Shown here: piece by piece, positions 595 to 28,568 of the stretch
Layout of the letters: each line of letters opens with the position of its first letter
Numbering within the stretch: the first letter of the stretch is position 1
Virus record (IMG/VR): IMGVR_UViG_3300031884_000106
Span: 1-28,998 of that record
From: a virus
Length of the DNA stretch: 28,998 nt
Direction: 5' to 3' (one strand)
Notes under the pieces: model-generated
What the model saw: only the letters and a program-made list of their open reading frames with translations
The model's database searches: none
What the model was told of the DNA's origin: nothing
Translations under genes and position numbers: made by a program

Positions 595-929
595 CTGTTA
601 ATATAGTCATCCATCTTCTTAATGAAGTCTTTAATTTTCTTTTCTCTATCAGGCCAAACAATCGTATCCTTTTCAGGATTCTTCATCAAATTATTAAGCA
701 AAGGCATGATCATTTTGCGTAACCCTTGAGCTTTGTCCTCGACATTTGATTTTATTTGGTTTTGTATTTCGTTACTATCGGAAAATGTAAACCCGAAATC
801 GTCTTCAACTTCTTTATTTTCAATCATAGTTTTTCCTTTTAGTGGTTTGTCTTGATATGGGCAATTTCTTTTACCACAATCTTTTTTATCATCATCAAAA
901 CAAACAAAACAACCCCGATCTTGACTCAT
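591..929 (-). CDS. Small conserved T4-type phage protein, function unknown
   Basis: A 112-residue protein starting at the ATG at 929, whose ATGA overlaps the stop of gp43B; GGAGG lies about 10 bases upstream inside the polymerase gene, so the two are translationally coupled. The N-terminus has four cysteines (CFVC, then CGKRNC) that could bind a metal. The C-terminal half, MIMPLLNNLMKNPEKD followed by IVWPDREKKI, resembles small helical proteins I remember from other T4-like phages, without a known function. The longer frame from 971 would lie wholly inside gp43B and lacks its own ribosome site. Its place between polymerase and uvsX suggests a role in replication or recombination, which is inference. 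Confidence 0.75.
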   Translation of the reverse strand: MSQDRGCFVCFDDDKKDCGKRNCPYQDKPLKGKTMIENKEVEDDFGFTFSDSNEIQNQIKSNVEDKAQGLRKMIMPLLNNLMKNPEKDTIVWPDREKKIKDFIKKMDDYINS

Positions 930-2239
930 CCAAAAAAATCCTCCAACGTTGATCTTTGTTCTGCTTCCCAACCAATAACATCGGTTATAGACTTCAATGG
1001 TTCCAAAAACGATTTATTGAATTGCATATCACGATCTATATAATTATCAAGGTTAAATTGTTCGGGTAATAGATCAGAAGTCGCGATAACTGTGTCTTGA
1101 ACGGGATTAGGTATCTTCAAATATGCAAATCTAATTTTATCTCCATCAGAAAGAGGAGGTATATTCGTAATATTATGCTTTTTGAGCATATTATTGAATA
1201 ATAGAGCTCCCTTAACCTGAATTGGAGTTCCTTTCTTGTAGATATCAGCGGAATCTTTATACTTGTTTATTCCTTTCAATCCTCTTGGAAAAGCTACATC
1301 CTGAAACGGTAAAGAAGCAAATTCATTTCTAAATTCCTCAATGAATTTTTGTAGAGAAGCTTGATCCTCGTTCATTATTATACTAAGAGCTTTCTTAATA
1401 TTTTCGCGGCAAGCATGTGGTGTTGAAGAACGAACAGCTTCAATACCAGACAATTTCAACTTGGGCTTATCATATTGAACACCTTCAACATTCCAAGCGT
1501 TAAGAATATACATCTTCTTACCACGCCAAATACCTTTGTTGGCAATGGTTTCACGCTTCATCTGCATCTTCTGCTGATAAGCATTCATCATTCCAGCAAG
1601 TTCGTCATAACAAATATCAAGATATGGTTGAATCTTTTTTTCGCAGAATTGATCGATCAACTTAACAGCTTTAAGCTCATCGCTGCCTTCAGGAATCAGT
1701 CGTTCAAATGTAACATAGATAGAATCAGTATCAGAAGCGATAACGTAATCAACATTTTCAGTCTTACAAATCTTATTCATAAACTGATTCATCTTATTGA
1801 TAATAAATTTAATTGTTAATTGACCTGACGAAGTAATAGATTCTGCATTATCAAAGTTAAACCAACGAAAATACATATTAGACAAGGCTCCATAAAAGCT
1901 GTTGAGTTGAATTTTTTTGGCCATTTGGAGATTATTATATCTAGAAACTAATTTTTCATCTTCCTTGCTTTTGGTTTTTTCATATCTTTTTTTAGTCTCA
2001 ATCATCAATTTTTTATATTTCGACCTGTCATCGAACATTTTTTGCATAAGCGCCGTTGCAAAACCATGAGAATCATTTTTATATAAACAACCGTTTGCAG
2101 TCAAAGAATAACCTTCTATTTTTGGCGTCGTTTTATTTTTAAATATAAAAGAGTTATCATAAGATTCAGGTCGAATGTCATCTAACATTTTTTCCAGAGT
2201 ATACAATTCTTCATCAGTTAAATTTTCTAAAATGTTCAT
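926..2239 (-). CDS. 43B: DNA polymerase gp43, C-terminal chain (palm, fingers, thumb)
   Basis: The second half of a family B T4-type polymerase, 437 residues. Motif B is seen as KKIQLNSFYGALS (about 108-120) and motif C as ASDTDSIYV with catalytic Asp170 and Asp172. The last residues STLEDFFG match the T4 C-terminal sliding-clamp peptide. The part upstream of motif B starts with ENLTDEELYTLEKML, roughly where T4 gp43 continues after motif A, so little or nothing is missing. GGTGGAG sits just before the ATG, inside the end of the HNH gene, giving a 26-nt overlap and coupled translation. It must pair with the product of 2907-4172 to make a working enzyme. Confidence 0.95.
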   Translation of the reverse strand: MNILENLTDEELYTLEKMLDDIRPESYDNSFIFKNKTTPKIEGYSLTANGCLYKNDSHGFATALMQKMFDDRSKYKKLMIETKKRYEKTKSKEDEKLVSRYNNLQMAKKIQLNSFYGALSNMYFRWFNFDNAESITSSGQLTIKFIINKMNQFMNKICKTENVDYVIASDTDSIYVTFERLIPEGSDELKAVKLIDQFCEKKIQPYLDICYDELAGMMNAYQQKMQMKRETIANKGIWRGKKMYILNAWNVEGVQYDKPKLKLSGIEAVRSSTPHACRENIKKALSIIMNEDQASLQKFIEEFRNEFASLPFQDVAFPRGLKGINKYKDSADIYKKGTPIQVKGALLFNNMLKKHNITNIPPLSDGDKIRFAYLKIPNPVQDTVIATSDLLPEQFNLDNYIDRDMQFNKSFLEPLKSITDVIGWEAEQRSTLEDFFG

Positions 2240-2882
2240 TTCTCCACCTAATTGCTCTAGTTACATTAGAATTTATTCGACCATCTTTAGCGTAATAATT
2301 CTGTTTAGATAACCAATTATTAAATTCTTCTTCGCTCATATTGATATATTTGTATTTGGTCTTTTTTCTTTGTTCAGATATTTTTTCTAACTTTTCTTTT
2401 GAACATGGTGCAGATAATCTATTTTTGGGATAATTTATTTTCATACCCGTCTTTTTTTCTCTCATTTTTTCTATACCTTTTAGTATAGTTTTTCTATCTG
2501 CACCGAAATAAGCCTTTCCAATCATATCAACTCGTTTTTTACCTTTTTTAGATTCAACGACTGCAGTTCTAGCCGATTCATATAGATAAGAATTATTGAA
2601 AATTTTTTGTCTATACGTATCACCTTTTCCATAAATCATCCAATGAAAAGCCATGGCCATTTTCCTAGTTTTTTCGTCTTCTGATCCATAACGTTTACGA
2701 AATATTTTCCATAAAAGTTTATGAGAAATGTAATGTTCTCTTAAAGTTAAAGGAACTACGAAATCATTTGGACCATAAATTGACACGGGAAAAACATGAT
2801 GATATTCGTATAATTTTCTGTCTATTTCTTTTCTATTTTTCGCTCTTCTTATAATTAAAATATATTTCTTTAAATAATTCAT
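2214..2882 (-). CDS. HNH homing endonuclease between the two polymerase genes
   Basis: A 222-residue free-standing homing endonuclease. The N-terminal nuclease core reads YEYHHVFPVSIYGPND then LREHYISHKLL, giving the H28-H29, N39 and H50/H54 pattern of phage HNH enzymes (MobE-like). The basic C-terminus (KEKLEKISEQRKKTKYKY and later NSNVTRAIRWRN) is a likely DNA-binding region. It starts 24 bp after the gp43A stop and overlaps gp43B by 26 nt, so it splits the polymerase between motifs A and B. Its ribosome site lies in a small hairpin beside a late-promoter-like sequence (2889-2911). By analogy with the split gene 43 of Aeromonas phages, it probably cuts intact gene 43 of relatives and promotes its own spread; that is inference. 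Confidence 0.88.
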   Translation of the reverse strand: MNYLKKYILIIRRAKNRKEIDRKLYEYHHVFPVSIYGPNDFVVPLTLREHYISHKLLWKIFRKRYGSEDEKTRKMAMAFHWMIYGKGDTYRQKIFNNSYLYESARTAVVESKKGKKRVDMIGKAYFGADRKTILKGIEKMREKKTGMKINYPKNRLSAPCSKEKLEKISEQRKKTKYKYINMSEEEFNNWLSKQNYYAKDGRINSNVTRAIRWRNEHFRKFN

Positions 2883-2888
2883 AAATTT

Positions 2889-2911
2889 ACTCCATTTAAA
2901 GAGTATTTAGG
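2889..2911 (-). promoter_or_regulatory. Late-type promoter overlapping an RBS-covering hairpin (HNH gene)
   Basis: On the minus strand CCTAAATA (2911-2904), similar to the T4 late box TATAAATA, covers the gp43A stop codon. It runs into ACUCU (2904-2900), which can pair with GGAGU (2893-2889) over a 6-nt loop; GGAG is the ribosome site for the ATG at 2882. Early read-through mRNA would hide the site, while a late transcript starting a few bases downstream would lack the 5' arm. The stem is short (5 bp, one G-U). Confidence 0.5.
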
Positions 2912-4172
2912 TCAAACCGCGTCTTTTCTTCTCTCTTTCAATCATTTCTTTTAATGTTTTTTTGTTTATCATTTTTTCGGGGCTAATATTATATTGTTGA
3001 ATTAAACTTGGGTATAGAGATGTTAAATCAAAAGAAACAACCCACCTACTCAAACCAATCTTTGGTTCCTTGACGTATCCACCAACCAAACTATCAAAAT
3101 TAGATTGTTTCTTGAACTGAGGAATAACAATACCTTGATCAAGTAGATAATTATGAATAATAACATCCCAAGGACGCACAGTTGTCATTGTATCATTGTA
3201 ATTTACCTTGGCGTCATATGCCAAAGCCATTACTTGTTCAAGAAACTTCATTTTATCGTCAAGACGTTCAACCAGAACGCAGTCATGAATATTATATTCA
3301 ATAAACTTTTGAAAGTCGTCTCTATAGAATGTTAGGAAGTTTTTATGTTCTGAGTGATCAATTTTCTTTTCGCCCAATTCAATCTGAGCAATATAATCGA
3401 GTTTATAAGATTCCTGATTACCAAATGTAAATTTACGATACAATTGATAATAATCAAGAACAGCTATGCCAGCGGGAGTGAAACTTTGATTTTCCTTACC
3501 ACGAAATTCGACGGTCTTTTCATCAAGAATAAACCAAGGCGAAAGACGCTTTGCTTCCTTTTCATTGAACAGAACACGAATACGATTAACCAAATATGGA
3601 ATGTCGAAAAATTCTATATTCCAACCAGTAACAATATCTAGGTCAAGAGACATCCAACAAGACAAAAACTTCTGAAGTAATTCGTGTTCGTCTTGACATT
3701 GAATATAGAAAGTTTTATTGTCCTTCGGAGTAAACTTACCACAGCCAAAGACAAAGTTTTTATTATTAAATCTCACTGTTATGGCTGTGATTTCTTTGTC
3801 CGCTTTTTGAATATCAGGAAATCCTTCATCAGCGGCGCACTCGATATCAAGAATGCCAATCTTAACCAGATTAGGATCGTAATCAATATCACCTTTGAAC
3901 GTGTCGTAGATGAAAGTATAAACGAATGAATTAAGCCCGTATATTTCCATATTCGCTACATCTTCATAACGATTAACGAAATCACGAGCATCTGAAATAT
4001 CATCGAACATCATCTTCTCAACGGGTCTACCATCAAGAGTTTTATATTTACCATTACTTTTTTGAATAAACATATAAGGTTTGTAGTTGACGACTTCTTT
4101 AACTCTCAAACCTTTATCGTAACCTTGGTAATAAATTCTATTACCACGCTGAAAAACACTAGTGTAAAACAT
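2907..4172 (-). CDS. 43A: DNA polymerase gp43, N-terminal chain (exonuclease and motif A)
   Basis: First half of the family B replicative polymerase, 421 residues from the ATG at 4172 (GGAG 8 bases upstream; a TTG one codon earlier is less likely). It carries the 3'-5' proofreading exonuclease: Exo I ILDIECA (Asp109, Glu111), Exo II TGWNIEFFDIPYL (Asp190), Exo III YNIHDC (Asp297). The polymerase domain begins with VGGYVKEP and motif A SFDLTSLYPSL (Asp382). It ends at a real TAA after EREKKRRGLT, well before motif B, which is in the gene at 926-2239. No intron-like conserved core was recognised between the halves, so two separate chains are expected. Confidence 0.95.
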   Translation of the reverse strand: MFYTSVFQRGNRIYYQGYDKGLRVKEVVNYKPYMFIQKSNGKYKTLDGRPVEKMMFDDISDARDFVNRYEDVANMEIYGLNSFVYTFIYDTFKGDIDYDPNLVKIGILDIECAADEGFPDIQKADKEITAITVRFNNKNFVFGCGKFTPKDNKTFYIQCQDEHELLQKFLSCWMSLDLDIVTGWNIEFFDIPYLVNRIRVLFNEKEAKRLSPWFILDEKTVEFRGKENQSFTPAGIAVLDYYQLYRKFTFGNQESYKLDYIAQIELGEKKIDHSEHKNFLTFYRDDFQKFIEYNIHDCVLVERLDDKMKFLEQVMALAYDAKVNYNDTMTTVRPWDVIIHNYLLDQGIVIPQFKKQSNFDSLVGGYVKEPKIGLSRWVVSFDLTSLYPSLIQQYNISPEKMINKKTLKEMIEREKKRRGLT

Positions 4173-4224
4173 CAAATCTCCTTTTGCAATCCGGCCAAAA
4201 TTAGCCCACAGATGCTAATAATAT

Positions 4225-5470: not shown

Positions 5471-5911
5471 TCATTTTTCGATTGGAATATTCATAAGTTT
5501 CTTTGCTTCAATCATTGCGTCCAATGTAATTTGAAGCATACCGTTAATATACTTTGCATTATTAACAGTAACGTTGTCGTTCAACGTAAACTTACGTTCA
5601 AAAGGCTTTTCGGAAATGCCCTTGTAAAGATAATCATCGGTTTTCTTATCATCTTGGTTCAATTTACCTTTGACAATAAGCTGATTGTCTTCAAGAGTAA
5701 CACTTAGTGCACTTTCAGGGAAACCAGCAACAGCGATTTCAATTTCGTACTTTTTTTCTGAAAGTTTCTTAATGTTGTATGGGGGATAACTTGTTGATAT
5801 TGTATTCGCAATATCCTTATGAACCTTTTGTAGTGTGTCAAAAAGACGATCAGAACCTACAAAATATTTGTCCATATCAACGAATTTAAAATTAGTCCAT
5901 GGGTTAGTCAT
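5471..5911 (-). CDS. Small heat-shock protein, Hsp20/IbpA family
   Basis: A 146-residue alpha-crystallin-domain chaperone. Seen: VGSDRLFDTLQ (18-28) and YPPYNI (42-47) as in bacterial IbpA/HspA; the core KYEIEIAVAGFPESAL (54-69); YLYKGISEKPFERKFTL (94-110); the GML signature in INGMLQITL (122-130); and a C-terminal IPI (residues 142-144) equivalent to the I-x-I tail. Phage Hsp20 proteins are known from T4-type phages of cyanobacteria and other hosts, where they are thought to help protein folding during infection. Start at 5911 follows AAGGAG. It has its own promoter (5967-5996) and a strong terminator. Confidence 0.95.
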   Translation of the reverse strand: MTNPWTNFKFVDMDKYFVGSDRLFDTLQKVHKDIANTISTSYPPYNIKKLSEKKYEIEIAVAGFPESALSVTLEDNQLIVKGKLNQDDKKTDDYLYKGISEKPFERKFTLNDNVTVNNAKYINGMLQITLDAMIEAKKLMNIPIEK

Positions 5912-7630: not shown

Positions 7631-8836
7631 TTATTTTGTAGGAACCGGAGAAGCAGGGGCCTTTGGTACGAGGTTAATCAAGCCCTCAATAATTCCCGGC
7701 GAGACAAACATAGGAAGACCGTGCTTATCCATACCGCTTGCCAATCCACGCTGAACATCAAGCTGTGCAGTGGCCTGAAGAGTTGCCATGACCGGACCAA
7801 GCTTGGCTGCTTCATAGAAGTTATTGACAGTACGCTGAACTTCACTGTCAAATTCAAAAGTATCGGCCCAACCAATAAAGTTGATAGTGATACCAAAGTT
7901 CTTGAAATATGCCCTAACGTTCTTCTCGATATCGTCCATCATTGGTACATAATCTTCGTTGGCTTTATCGAAAGTACGACGACCAATTTCGTTACAAACC
8001 AGAGTCTGAACCTTCTTACGACCAACATCGTCCATTACACTCCAAAGGCTACGACCATAATAAACGCTCTGAAAGATAACCTGTGGATCGTTTGGATTGC
8101 CCTTTGGCTGCTGAACACCGAAGTTATAAAGAAACTTGGCTGCATCCTGCTCGGCAACACTGGCGGCAATACTAACGCCTGCAGTAATATTCAAACCTTC
8201 CTTGGACTGACAAGGAAAAGACTGATCAGTGTTTGAGCTGCCACGTTCCCTCGACTTAACCCATTCATGAGAATAAGGAGTACGATCAACAATATACAAG
8301 CGACCCGTTGGAACATAATAATCCCATCCATAATAACCGCCTGTGTTGGCCAACTTCGCGTGAGGAATTACGAAACGCTTTGAAGCAATCTTACGTTCGT
8401 TATAATACTCTTCACTTTCAAACTGAGCCTGACTGTCCTTATTGGCGCCGGCATCAGGAACCCAAAACGCTGTCTGGTTGGGAAGAATTGTATACGCTTC
8501 GGTCTTATCAGTCGTATCAGCGTAAGCCCATGCTCGATCAGACTGATATGTAAACACCATAAAGGCTAGAGAGGCGCTAATCGCAGCTGTAATCAAATTC
8601 TTTGTTGGCTTGAACCAGATAGCCACCAAAACAATAATAAGAGCAATACTAAACAATGCATTCACACCACTAAAAAACGAGAACGTGTAAACTGTCTGTA
8701 GATATGCCATATCGCTATTACCAAACTGATTGCTAGCAACTCGACCAGTTACAAGAGTGGCGATTGGAGTATAGAGATTCGTCAAGAAACTATAAAACGC
8801 CAAAACAACCAGTGAACCAAAAACTCGATTAAACAT
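7631..8836 (-). CDS. SPFH/Band-7 domain membrane protein
   Basis: A 401-residue protein with about three N-terminal membrane segments (roughly 5-24, 54-75 and 80-96), then a domain like stomatin/prohibitin: NERKIASKRFVIPHA, a DRTPYSHEW stretch, QSKEGLNITAGVSIAASV, AAKFLYNFGV, and NVRAYFKNFGITINFIGWAD. The C-terminus EAAKLGPVMATLQATAQLDVQ is helical. SPFH proteins assemble into membrane-bound cages that often control proteases; in a phage this may remodel or protect the host membrane (inference). The ATG at 8836 has GAAAGGAA upstream. It follows the 8862-9200 gene by 25 bp under the promoter at 9230-9258. Confidence 0.82.
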   Translation of the reverse strand: MFNRVFGSLVVLAFYSFLTNLYTPIATLVTGRVASNQFGNSDMAYLQTVYTFSFFSGVNALFSIALIIVLVAIWFKPTKNLITAAISASLAFMVFTYQSDRAWAYADTTDKTEAYTILPNQTAFWVPDAGANKDSQAQFESEEYYNERKIASKRFVIPHAKLANTGGYYGWDYYVPTGRLYIVDRTPYSHEWVKSRERGSSNTDQSFPCQSKEGLNITAGVSIAASVAEQDAAKFLYNFGVQQPKGNPNDPQVIFQSVYYGRSLWSVMDDVGRKKVQTLVCNEIGRRTFDKANEDYVPMMDDIEKNVRAYFKNFGITINFIGWADTFEFDSEVQRTVNNFYEAAKLGPVMATLQATAQLDVQRGLASGMDKHGLPMFVSPGIIEGLINLVPKAPASPVPTK

Positions 8837-25409: not shown

Positions 25410-26534
25410 ATGGCTCGTCGTCAACCACTTATCGCTAATCGCAAACAGAAAGCTCCTCGCGTTTCTCGTTCGGAGCAGTACATCGTCAACTATAAGTATC
25501 TCGGCGACGAGCCCCTTTTCGATAAGGTTCCGTCAATTTCGGAATATTCTCAGGCTTTGACTTGGTACAATTATATGTGTACCAACGACGAAGCTCGCGG
25601 TTATCTTAAAGATTACCTTAAGAGCAAGTCGCGAACCGAGGAATTGAAGAAGCTTAATCGCGTATCTGATACTTGGGTTTCAACGACCGCTTGTTGGGTC
25701 GCGCGTATGATCACTCGTGGTTCTAAGATGCCAGAAACAGCGGGAACTTTCCTTGAAACTAAGATCAAGGAGATGCTTTCTCGCGCGAAGGTTGAAGAAC
25801 CTGTTGTTGAAACCGAAGTCAAGAAGCCTACGGTTAAAGAGCGTATTCAGGACAAAGCTTCTGACATTATCGGCGATATCGAGGAAATGATTGATTCTGA
25901 CGTTAAGTTTTCGCTTTACGATTGGATGAAGTCGAAATATATTCCCGCTGTTTACGCTTCTATGATTGTAGAGAAGTATACACCATGGCTCGACGAGTTG
26001 CTTGAGGCTCTCGAAGGCAACGATAATCAACTTAAAGAGGCTTATCGTTATCTTTCTAAGAAACAACTCAAGGAACGAGTTTTGTTCTTTAACTCGTTGA
26101 TCGAGGACGCCGAACGTTATGGCGCTGTGACTAAAAAGACGCGTAAACCACGTAAGCCTCGCGCTGTTTCGGTCGAGAAGAAGCTCAAGAACCTTAAGTA
26201 TCAAAAGGAAGATAAAGAGTTCAAGATCGCTTCGGTCAATCCAGAAAAGATTATTGGCGCTCAAGAACTTTGGACGTTCAACACCAAATATAAGACGTTG
26301 ACCGTACTAAGAGCTCTTGATCGCGGTGGTCTACAAATCAAGGGTACGAGCGTTTTGGGGTACGATGAAAACAACTCCGTAACCAAACGTACTGGTCGCA
26401 AGCCAGAAGAATACATTAAGAAGGTTTTGGAAGGTGGTAAGATCGTATTGCGTAAGCTTATGGATGAGTTGAAGAAAGAAGCTTCTTTGGCTTATCGTAT
26501 AAACGAAAATACTATTCTGCTAAAAATCACTTGA
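25410..26534 (+). CDS. Conserved protein of T4-like phages, unknown function
   Basis: A 374-residue basic protein from the ATG at 25410 (TTGGAGAACAG upstream). Parts such as YSQALTWYNYMCTNDEARGY, STTACWVARMITRGSKMPET, PAVYASMIVEKYTPWLDELL and the K/R-rich VTKKTRKPRKPRAV linker resemble proteins I remember from cyanophage-type T4 relatives with no assigned role. The C-terminal domain ELWTFNTKYKTLTVLRALDR and GTSVLGYDENNSVTKRTG may be a small beta domain. DNA binding is possible from composition. Its stop TGA is inside the -35 box of the tmRNA promoter. Confidence 0.78.
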   Translation: MARRQPLIANRKQKAPRVSRSEQYIVNYKYLGDEPLFDKVPSISEYSQALTWYNYMCTNDEARGYLKDYLKSKSRTEELKKLNRVSDTWVSTTACWVARMITRGSKMPETAGTFLETKIKEMLSRAKVEEPVVETEVKKPTVKERIQDKASDIIGDIEEMIDSDVKFSLYDWMKSKYIPAVYASMIVEKYTPWLDELLEALEGNDNQLKEAYRYLSKKQLKERVLFFNSLIEDAERYGAVTKKTRKPRKPRAVSVEKKLKNLKYQKEDKEFKIASVNPEKIIGAQELWTFNTKYKTLTVLRALDRGGLQIKGTSVLGYDENNSVTKRTGRKPEEYIKKVLEGGKIVLRKLMDELKKEASLAYRINENTILLKIT

Positions 26535-26564
26535 CCTTTTCAGCAGAATAGGGTAATATAAATA
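26512..26564 (+). promoter_or_regulatory. Stem-loop with overlapping early and late promoters for the RNA genes
   Basis: CTATTCTGCT (26512-26521) pairs perfectly with AGCAGAATAG (26542-26551). Early promoter TTGACC (26531-26536), 17 bp, TAATAT (26554-26559) lies partly in it. An exact late box TATAAATA follows at 26557-26564. Both would start just before the tmRNA acceptor piece. Confidence 0.7.
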
Positions 26565-26565
26565 T

Positions 26566-26848
26566 GTTGCTTGGTCGTTGAGGCGTAAAGAATAGATGCT
26601 TTGGACGTGGGTGCGAATCCCACCTGGTCCACCACAGATACACCGGGACCGACTCGAAAGAGACTCCTTAGAAGATGAGGGATTAGGTGTATCTTTGATG
26701 GGCCAGAATAGGTTCGACAAGGTATGTCAAGGTTACGAGTAGACTAAGTAAAAACGTTAAATGCAAACGATAACAATGCATCTGGTTTCGCCCTAGCGGC
26801 GTAACATGAGTCCGGCAGGAACTTGGAAACAGAATCCTGCCATCTTTT
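26566..26848 (+). ncRNA. ssrA: Permuted tmRNA (ssrA), acceptor piece first
   Basis: Transfer-messenger RNA that rescues stalled ribosomes and tags the unfinished protein. Acceptor piece: T arm GTGGG-TGCGAAT-CCCAC (26607-26623), 3' strand CTGGTCC (26624-26630) and ACCA to 26634. Coding piece: 5' strand GGGCCAG (26700-26706) pairs with CTGGTCC including the alanine identity pair G3-U70, then AATAGGTTCGAC. Tag reading frame from the resume codon GCA at 26763: ANDNNASGFALAA, stop TAA at 26802. The spacer between pieces is closed by AGATACACC/GGTGTATCT (26636-26644, 26686-26694), and a GGCAGGA/TCCTGCC stem ends the RNA. Outer ends are approximate. The permuted order is typical of Alphaproteobacteria. 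Confidence 0.93.
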
Positions 26849-26851
26849 CAT

Positions 26852-26928
26852 GGCTCCTTAGCTCAGCTGGACAGAGCACCGGATTTCTACTCCGGGCGTC
26901 GAGGGTTCGAATCCTTCAGGGGCCGCCA
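26852..26928 (+). tRNA. tRNA-Arg(UCU)
   Basis: A 77-nt cloverleaf: acceptor GGCTCCT/AGGGGCC, D arm GCTC...GAGC, anticodon stem CCGGA/TCCGG with loop TTTCTAC (anticodon TCT at 26886-26888), T loop TTCGAAT, and encoded CCA. It reads AGA/AGG, codons often rare in GC-rich hosts but used in this AT-richer phage. Confidence 0.93.
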
Positions 26929-26932
26929 TTTT

Positions 26933-27025
26933 GCTTCTGTAGTGTAACGGTCAGCACCCGGTCCTTATAAGTCCGTATCGCCAGATTAGCGAGGAGTCTT
27001 GGTTCGAATCCAAGCAGAAGCACCA
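26933..27025 (+). tRNA. tRNA with anticodon UAU and a long variable arm
   Basis: A 93-nt RNA: acceptor GCTTCTG/CAGAAGC, D arm GTG...CAC, T arm CTTGG-TTCGAAT-CCAAG, encoded CCA. The anticodon stem CGGTC/GTCCG has one T-T mismatch and the loop CTTATAA gives anticodon TAT (26966-26968, isoleucine AUA). The 22-nt variable region forms TCGC/GCGA (26978-26992), a class II feature normally seen in Leu, Ser and Tyr tRNAs. Identity is therefore uncertain; Leu(UAA) would break the U33 rule. Confidence 0.75.
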
Positions 27026-27308: not shown

Positions 27309-27785
27309 ATGTATCTCAGAACTATAGGGAAACCATCCAAAATACAATTAAAACTTTGCAAAGAAGCTGTGAAGTTTTATGGTAAATTTCTTTTAGGCGA
27401 AAATTTATATAATAAAGTATCAATAAAATTAAAATTTGACGAAACTATAATCAAATCTAAAGATTTTGCGTATTGTGGTTGGGACGATAATAATCACCGA
27501 TCTAGAGAATTTACGATAGTAATATCGCCTGTTCTTAATAGAAAACTTATGCTTAAGACCCTTGCTCACGAAATGGTTCACGTCAAACAATACGCGAAAG
27601 GCGAGCTTAAAGATTATCTAATATCAAACAAATCAAAATGGAAGGGCGAAGTATTCATTCATGATGAAGTAGAATACTGGTTTCAACCTTGGGAAATAGA
27701 AGCCCATGGTATGGAAATGGGATTATATTTAAAATTTGTTGAACATATGAGAGGAAAAAAAGATGAGCGTAAAAGCTTATGTTGA
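27309..27785 (+). CDS. SprT-like zinc metallopeptidase
   Basis: A 158-residue protein; start at ATG 27309 with GGGAGAG upstream (the in-frame ATG at 27285 is inside the hairpin loop). LAHEMVHVKQYAKGEL (85-100) is the zinc HExxH motif (His87, Glu88, His91); the downstream WFQPWEIEAHGMEMGLY (124-140) should give the third ligand. CGWDDNNHRSREFTIVIS fits SprT-like phage proteins known next to gp33/gp59 in T4-like genomes. Substrate unknown. Overlaps the next gene by 23 nt. Confidence 0.82.
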   Translation: MYLRTIGKPSKIQLKLCKEAVKFYGKFLLGENLYNKVSIKLKFDETIIKSKDFAYCGWDDNNHRSREFTIVISPVLNRKLMLKTLAHEMVHVKQYAKGELKDYLISNKSKWKGEVFIHDEVEYWFQPWEIEAHGMEMGLYLKFVEHMRGKKDERKSLC

Positions 27786-27990
27786 AACTGTAGTTGATGT
27801 TGTCCTTGATGATATCGCCGAAGAAGATTTGATTGATTATCTCGAGGATAAAGGATATGTGATCAAAGAAGGCGAATCCGTAAGCGAAATAGAAAATCTA
27901 TATTACGATTGGCTTTCTCTTCCACCAGATGCTTTTAATAAAGTTCTCAAGAAATTTTTCAGCGAACAATTAGACAAGATTGTTGTATGA
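27763..27990 (+). CDS. Small acidic protein, 75 residues
   Basis: ATG at 27763 within the end of the peptidase gene; GAGAGGAAAAAAAG upstream. Product starts MSVKAYVETVVDVVLDDIAE; helical and very acidic (EEDLIDYLEDKGYVIKEGES). Ends in the ATGA overlap with gp59. Not recognised; conserved position between gp33 and gp59 suggests a replication or transcription helper, or a DNA mimic (inference). Confidence 0.72.
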   Translation: MSVKAYVETVVDVVLDDIAEEDLIDYLEDKGYVIKEGESVSEIENLYYDWLSLPPDAFNKVLKKFFSEQLDKIVV

Positions 27991-28568
27991 CCACAGCAAT
28001 AGAAGCGTATAAAGAATATCTGGCTCTTAAAAATCATTTTACCAAAACATCCTATAATTATTTTAAGTACAATGGTAAGGCTAGAGTAAATCAATCAACG
28101 TTTGAAGCAAGAAAAGATAAACTGTTTTTTCAAAAGCTAGCGAAACATCCGGACGTAAAGAACTTTTTGGTCGCCAATTTTTCAATTAACGAGAAAACCT
28201 GGATCAAAGAATTAGCATATTCAGAAGAAGCTGAGAATAATTATAAGGACTGGCTGAAACGACAGCAGTCCTTATCTTACGTTTTCAAACAAGATTTGTC
28301 AAAATTAGACGACAATTTCAACGATAACTTTATTTGTCGTGATAATGAACATCCGATTTTATTAAAGAAATATCTAGGAAAAGAAATTTCCCTAGAAACT
28401 TTATGTTTGCTTTTAGATATCACTGGCGCTAAAAAGCATTGGGATACTAAAATGCAATACGATTTGGTTTGGGATAATCTACGAACCAGAGTGGAGAAAT
28501 ATACTCCTTTTATTAATGTTGATAAAGAAAAGATCAAAAAATTGATAGTTGACTTTTTCATTGAATAG
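27987..28568 (+). CDS. 59: gp59 helicase loader
   Basis: A 193-residue, all-helical protein that in T4 loads the gp41 helicase onto gp32-coated DNA. Matches to T4 gp59 from memory: AIEAYKEYLALKNHF (4-18) with T4 VYKLYLMIKQHM; the hallmark ARKDKLFFQKLAKHPD (41-56) with T4 KRRDKYFFQKLSEKYK; VANFSINEKTWIKELAYSEE with T4 VANQDAWIGDISDAD; YDLVWDNLRTRVEKYTPFIN with T4 DNLVWNNYSIKLKAYRKILN. Length is slightly under T4's 217. It lies directly before gene 32, as in T4. Confidence 0.9.
   Translation: MTTAIEAYKEYLALKNHFTKTSYNYFKYNGKARVNQSTFEARKDKLFFQKLAKHPDVKNFLVANFSINEKTWIKELAYSEEAENNYKDWLKRQQSLSYVFKQDLSKLDDNFNDNFICRDNEHPILLKKYLGKEISLETLCLLLDITGAKKHWDTKMQYDLVWDNLRTRVEKYTPFINVDKEKIKKLIVDFFIE

Follow-up and report, generated by a model that had tools for sequence, protein, structure and literature searches.

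The window analysed here, a 28,998-base virus record, carries within 26566-26848 on the + strand a complete circularly permuted tmRNA gene, which probably specifies a working, phage-owned, two-piece tmRNA made both early and late in infection from a composite promoter. The T4-like assignment of the window comes from DNA polymerase pieces and gp59. Anatomy, covariation, selection on the tag, promoter conservation and synteny are read directly from the sequence, and processing, charging, use of SmpB, tagging and benefit to the phage form the predicted part of this reading. Phage two-piece tmRNAs are already known from Melnitz, HTVC008M and others: a 2021 count gave 53 two-piece forms in phage genomes, of which 50 came from marine or aquatic phages (PMC9004378), and phage tmRNAs are included in the tmRNA database (PMC11915505). 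What the present analysis adds to the published phage tmRNAs is a conserved composite promoter, a fixed place at gp59, the position of the phage genes outside the bacterial clade, and a cassette swap.

A covariance search with cmscan matched the gene to tmRNA_permuted (RF04321) with 95.9 bits (cut-off 47, E 1.1e-17) and to alpha_tmRNA (RF01849) with 79.8 bits (cut-off 50, E 2.4e-20), and ARAGORN called it permuted, with the tag ANDNNASGFALAA. The sequence-only reading, which had suggested the alpha-model search, had proposed a permuted two-piece gene with G3-U70 in its acceptor stem, a tag ending in ALAA and a paired spacer, and all of these were borne out. As in RF04321, the 3' half of the tRNA domain is encoded before the 5' half, with an intervening segment between them, and an alanine acceptor stem with G3-U70, a T arm, CCA, a resume region and a tag frame ending in Ala-Ala are present. 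The acceptor strands GGGCCAG/CTGGTCC pair fully in the window, G3-U70 included, and the fold of the whole precursor has a z of -3.9. The parts of the gene are as follows.

26566-26634 (approximate), +: acceptor piece, from reading of the sequence, its probable 5' end placed by the promoter
26567-26576, 26584-26588 and 26596-26603, +: P2 strands of the acceptor piece
26624-26630, +: 3' acceptor strand, with the T arm in the same piece; encoded CCA at 26632-26634
26635-26699, +: intervening segment (spacer), presumably removed, with paired ends
26636-26644 with 26685-26693, +: pairing of the spacer ends, AGATACACC with GGTGTATCT
26700-26843, +: coding piece, starting at G26700, with a presumed 3' end; it also holds the D loop and the resume region
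26700-26706, +: 5' acceptor strand GGGCCAG
26718-26725, 26733-26737 and 26742-26751, +: P2 strands of the coding piece
26763-26804, +: tag reading frame, GCA to GCG followed by TAA, encoding ANDNNASGFALAA (ARAGORN)
26814-26841, +: terminal hairpin GGCAGGA/TCCTGCC with the loop ACTTGGAAACAGAA, as at the end of the alpha_tmRNA model

Related phage genes bear marks of selection on the same elements, although the compared phages are related and the counts are not independent. Across 33 phage genes, every cell of the acceptor stem is paired (231/231) and every gene has G3-U70; both sides are altered in a compensating manner at three of the seven stem pairs; most phage genes have GGGGGCG/CGCCTCC where the window has GGGCCAG/CTGGTCC. 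Acceptor and P2 pairing was scored by position-based counts and partner permutation, MAFFT-based pair counts being prone to one-base shifts. The duplex between the two pieces is stronger with own partners (mean -13.2 kcal/mol) than with permuted ones (-10.8 kcal/mol, the lowest of 2000 permutations being -12.1), and for the spacer ends the corresponding values are -14.3 and -8.2 kcal/mol (lowest permuted value, -9.7). The tag ends in Ala-Ala in 45 of the 46 distinct tag DNAs, with all four Ala codons in use. A DNA word taken from the start of the tag served to retrieve most phage loci, and we draw no conclusion from that stretch of the tag; the tag ends are not covered by the word. Stem covariation, pairing of pieces and spacer, and the tag ends thus point to what would be a functional tmRNA carrying a functional degradation tag.

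The sequence-only reading had also placed two overlapping promoters, an early and a late one, ahead of the gene:

26531-26559, +: sigma-70 type promoter TTGACC-17-TAATAT (9/12 match); TTGAC is found upstream in 41/50 non-redundant phage genes
26557-26564, +: T4-type late promoter box TATAAATA, overlapping the -10; the exact box is found at the same place in 35/50 non-redundant phage genes

Taken alone, the window does not bear this out, since a word scan retrieved 12 sites of the TTGACC-17-TAATAT class with 8.6 expected and two TATAAATA boxes with 2.5 expected, which is chance level in both cases. We therefore used conservation in relatives instead. Among 50 non-redundant phage tmRNA upstream regions, 30 contain TTGAC together with TATAAATA and 10 contain TTGAC together with AAATA; TATAAATA only, AAATA only and TTGAC only account for 5, 4 and 1, respectively. 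The distance from the exact late boxes to the 3' tRNA domain downstream is 25 to 34 bases. TTGAC precedes TATAAATA by exactly 17 bases at 33 of 44 tmRNA boxes (by 18 at one), and before inspection the same spacing was seen at 10 of 102 non-tmRNA boxes of the same contigs. On inspection, 7 of these 10 proved to belong to tmRNA genes missed by ARAGORN, so that the corrected count is 41/51 tmRNA boxes versus 3/95 other boxes. Since it is conserved in this way, we take the promoter pair to be real. In the subgroup of the window, the late box lies 3 bases downstream of the -10 (TAATATAAATA; TATACTAAATA and TATAATAAATA in relatives). The composite promoter is absent at that place in HTVC008M, DLP_6 and RHph_I1_18, and one phage clade (L126, L128, L129 and L135) has a late-type box or a near match without TTGAC, so early expression is not universal. 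The outer edge of the P2 helix is where both the early and the late start are expected, and transcription initiation alone may thus set the 5' end of the acceptor piece. That the tmRNA is made throughout infection is, on this conservation, a good prediction. The literature we searched, with partial coverage, yielded no paper on a composite early/late promoter for tmRNA.

The gene is followed on the same strand by two tRNA genes and by the region of gp33 and gp59:

26852-26928, +: tRNA-Arg(TCT), directly 3' of the tmRNA (cmscan, ARAGORN)
26933-27025, +: tRNA with a TAT anticodon and a long variable arm, called tRNA-Ile (cmscan, ARAGORN)
27763-27990, +: 75-aa ORF in the place of the late-transcription coactivator gp33 (by position only)
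27987-28568, +: helicase loader gp59 (phrog_269, E 2.3e-56)

In 67 of 71 phage loci gp59 is found downstream of the tmRNA on the same strand, at a median distance of about 1.2 kb, and the window shares this place with the T4-like phage tmRNA of Melnitz. The best named relatives of the phrog_11903 protein encoded upstream of the tmRNA are in large phages of Sinorhizobium, Rhizobium, Caulobacter, Ochrobactrum and Stenotrophomonas. The tRNA with the TAT anticodon has a relative with 76% identity in Stenotrophomonas phage DLP_6. Elsewhere in the window, the DNA polymerase gene gp43 (926-4175, - strand) is split into two reading frames, matching profile residues 9-431 and 420-852, with an HNH/homing endonuclease ORF (2214-2882) between them, and an Hsp20-like (5471-5911, - strand) and a Band 7/SPFH-like protein (7631-8836, - strand) are encoded.

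A route from this gene to tagged protein can be proposed, with processing, charging, SmpB and tagging steps drawn from known tmRNA biology. Transcription from the composite promoter would give a single precursor RNA whose first base coincides with the 5' edge of the acceptor piece or lies only a few bases from it, and in the folded precursor the spacer hairpin would bring the CCA end and G1 together. Host enzymes would remove the spacer, with RNase P cutting at G26700 and 3' processing reaching the encoded CCA at 26634, and trimming against the tRNA-Arg would involve an exonuclease and RNase P. The acceptor stem and the P2 helices would hold the two pieces together, a host enzyme would charge them with alanine via G3-U70, and delivery to stalled ribosomes would occur with host SmpB, followed by addition of ANDNNASGFALAA and transfer of the tagged product to host proteases. 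Host SmpB is presumed because SmpB was found in 0 of 12 phage records, complete isolates included (the window being a fragment), and in 10 of 14 control genomes. Early synthesis would be carried out by the host sigma-70 polymerase and late synthesis by the phage late machinery, so that ribosome rescue would continue once host transcription has stopped; the phage probably gains from this continued rescue at a time when transcription by the host is failing and mRNA is being cleaved.

Other roles for the gene can be weighed against the same data. Expression might be restricted to the early stage, with tagging and recycling of host proteins before phage proteins build up, as proposed for Melnitz, whose tmRNA is described as having an early promoter, a sigma-70 promoter ahead of the gene (PMC9004378). 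However, the Melnitz promoter sequence, CTTGACATTCAAATGTCTTTGTGGTATAAATA, includes the exact late box TATAAATA 17 nt after TTGACA, i.e., TTGACA-17-TATAAATA compared to TTGACC-17-TAATATAAATA in the window, and late-type boxes stand without TTGAC in the phage clade mentioned above; we consider early-only expression improbable. A decoy that blocks host trans-translation, like the tag-less tmRNA of mycobacteriophage DS6A, is suggested by the inhibition of endogenous E. coli tmRNA by a phage tmRNA that has no reading frame (PMC11915505), but the reading frame here is complete and the degron, with its Ala-Ala ends written in four Ala codons, is under selection, which makes a decoy somewhat less probable still. 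Genes for tmRNA serve as integration sites, a point also made in PMC11915505, and this gene might in principle be a functionless relic of integration at a host tmRNA gene. The gene is nevertheless complete, has its own conserved promoter, a fixed place upstream of gp59 and coevolving pairs, and no integrase was present among the window proteins scanned, so we give a relic hardly any credence.

As to origin, the sequence-only reading held that the phage probably took the gene from an alphaproteobacterial host. Two candidate host orders were compared. The first (G362) offered 6 genomes only, with unlike tags; the second is an order that we take to be SAR11-like on the evidence of a 16S probe. 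In a tree of 121 genes, limited by about 208 alignment columns, a midpoint root, sampled hosts and several long branches, 69 bacterial genes and 10 genes from the SAR11-like order formed one clade (95/100) with no phage genes inside; the exceptions, DLP_6 and one bacterial beta-like gene, were paired elsewhere. The window, too, falls outside this 79-gene bacterial clade. The exact tag-start DNA of the window was searched for in 84,980 species genomes and was found at four bacterial loci, none of them an ARAGORN-recognised tmRNA. BLASTN of the window tmRNA against phages retrieved mainly Streptomyces phage tmRNAs, through the tag region.

A recent capture of ssrA from an alphaproteobacterial host, in part also the reading of the Melnitz paper (PMC9004378), can draw on alpha_tmRNA being the best clade-specific Rfam model and on two bacterial genes with similar tags, ANDNNAEGFAVAA and ANDNNAKGYALAA. 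Against it stand the bacterial clade without these phages, the lack of a match to the tag-start DNA in any ARAGORN-recognised tmRNA of the species genomes searched, and the same genomic place in distant phages. Since the phage genes lie outside the bacterial genes, SAR11-like ones included, and host tags differ in the comparison with host ssrA genes, the earlier proposal is not supported if a recent capture was meant, and we regard such a capture as unlikely. In our reading the gene is instead long established in this phage group, Alphaproteobacteria-like in type and with one or several phage origins; an old origin from an Alphaproteobacteria-like gene is possible. The early/late promoter, the selected degron and the phage-specific lineage argue that these phages have to control ribosome rescue themselves, and the same evidence speaks against an early-only gene or a recent capture from a SAR11-type host.

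Two-piece tmRNA of the Alphaproteobacteria (RF01849; Caulobacter type) shares with the window the gene order, the G3-U70 acceptor stem, the resume region, an ALAA-type tag and the terminal hairpin with its conserved loop, but differs from the phage genes in P2 sequence, in its separate clade and in its shorter spacers (host median 27 nt; phage 50-142 nt). Another close system is that of Methylophilales phage Melnitz (MZ577097, PMC9004378), which is likewise T4-like, with a permuted tmRNA upstream of gp33 and gp59 and a composite promoter, and which falls among the phage genes in the tree. Unlike the window, it has the tag ANDNYVPVDYALAA, a spacer of 142 nt and no tRNA-Arg directly behind the gene, and it has a glutamine riboswitch 3' of the tmRNA, none being found in the window by cmscan. 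This riboswitch lies between the tmRNA and gp33 (L287:1886-1934), a position that in our reading suits regulation of the gene downstream of it better than the published regulation of the tmRNA. Pelagibacter phage HTVC008M (NC_020484) also has a permuted tmRNA (RF04321, 90.6 bits), which lies a short distance ahead of gp59 when the two ends of the record are connected, but its tag is ANFNEYALAA, it has no TATAAATA at the usual place and its tree branch is long.

Stenotrophomonas phage DLP_6 (KU682439) is T4-like and related, and it encodes a homologue of phrog_11903, the protein next to the tmRNA in the window, but its tmRNA is of beta type (RF01850, 103.7 bits), groups with the beta-like bacterial gene, occupies another genomic place and has no composite promoter. 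Since it scores with the beta model, at least one separate capture has happened, and by this sequence comparison the DLP_6 tmRNA is an independent capture. The DLP_6 gene is unannotated (L184:2339-2560; KU682439 102838-103059; tag ANDDSFAPMAIAA); the Stenotrophomonas family is expected to have one-piece tmRNA.

Comparison of the window with its close relative L141 points to exchange of part of the gene as one cassette:

26608-26714 (approximate), +: block of T arm, acceptor strand, spacer and 5' acceptor strand, exchanged between the window and L141

The two are identical at 557/557 bases up to 26607 and at 99.2% over 2.3 kb downstream. Inside the block identity is about 65% and the spacer is 116 nt in L141 versus 65 nt in the window, with pairing intact; L141 is a single metagenome contig, for which an assembly fault is possible, and the window type is present in several contigs. 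L079 and L083 likewise have 98% identical flanks and 74% identical cassettes, and the pairs L040/L128 and L037/L105 show the reverse, with cassettes that are nearly identical and flanks that are not alike. Permutation of the gene places the acceptor strands next to each other in the DNA, and one exchange therefore keeps them matched. The swaps thus suggest a practical consequence of permuted order, namely that both acceptor strands move in one recombination; no report of such an exchange was met with in the literature, of which coverage was partial. We lean somewhat towards a general picture in which T4-like aquatic phages have an old phage-specific tmRNA lineage before gp59, a fused sigma-70/late promoter that keeps rescue on during all of infection, and a permuted order that lets the aminoacyl domain swap as a self-paired cassette.

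Several phage loci differ from this arrangement. No RF04321 match was obtained in Ochrobactrum phage OC, in which an annotated ArfA-like rescue factor (L152:6317-6514) lies near the phrog_11903 homologue and is possibly another way to keep ribosome rescue. In the permuted tmRNA of the jumbo Sinorhizobium phage Phosso (L288; PV764938 349596-350198), the intervening segment is very long, and the match spans 603 bases. A close relative of the window (L124:7127-7504) has an odd predicted tag, ATYASNDNVPYSAMKVAA, with an apparent insertion in the tag start.
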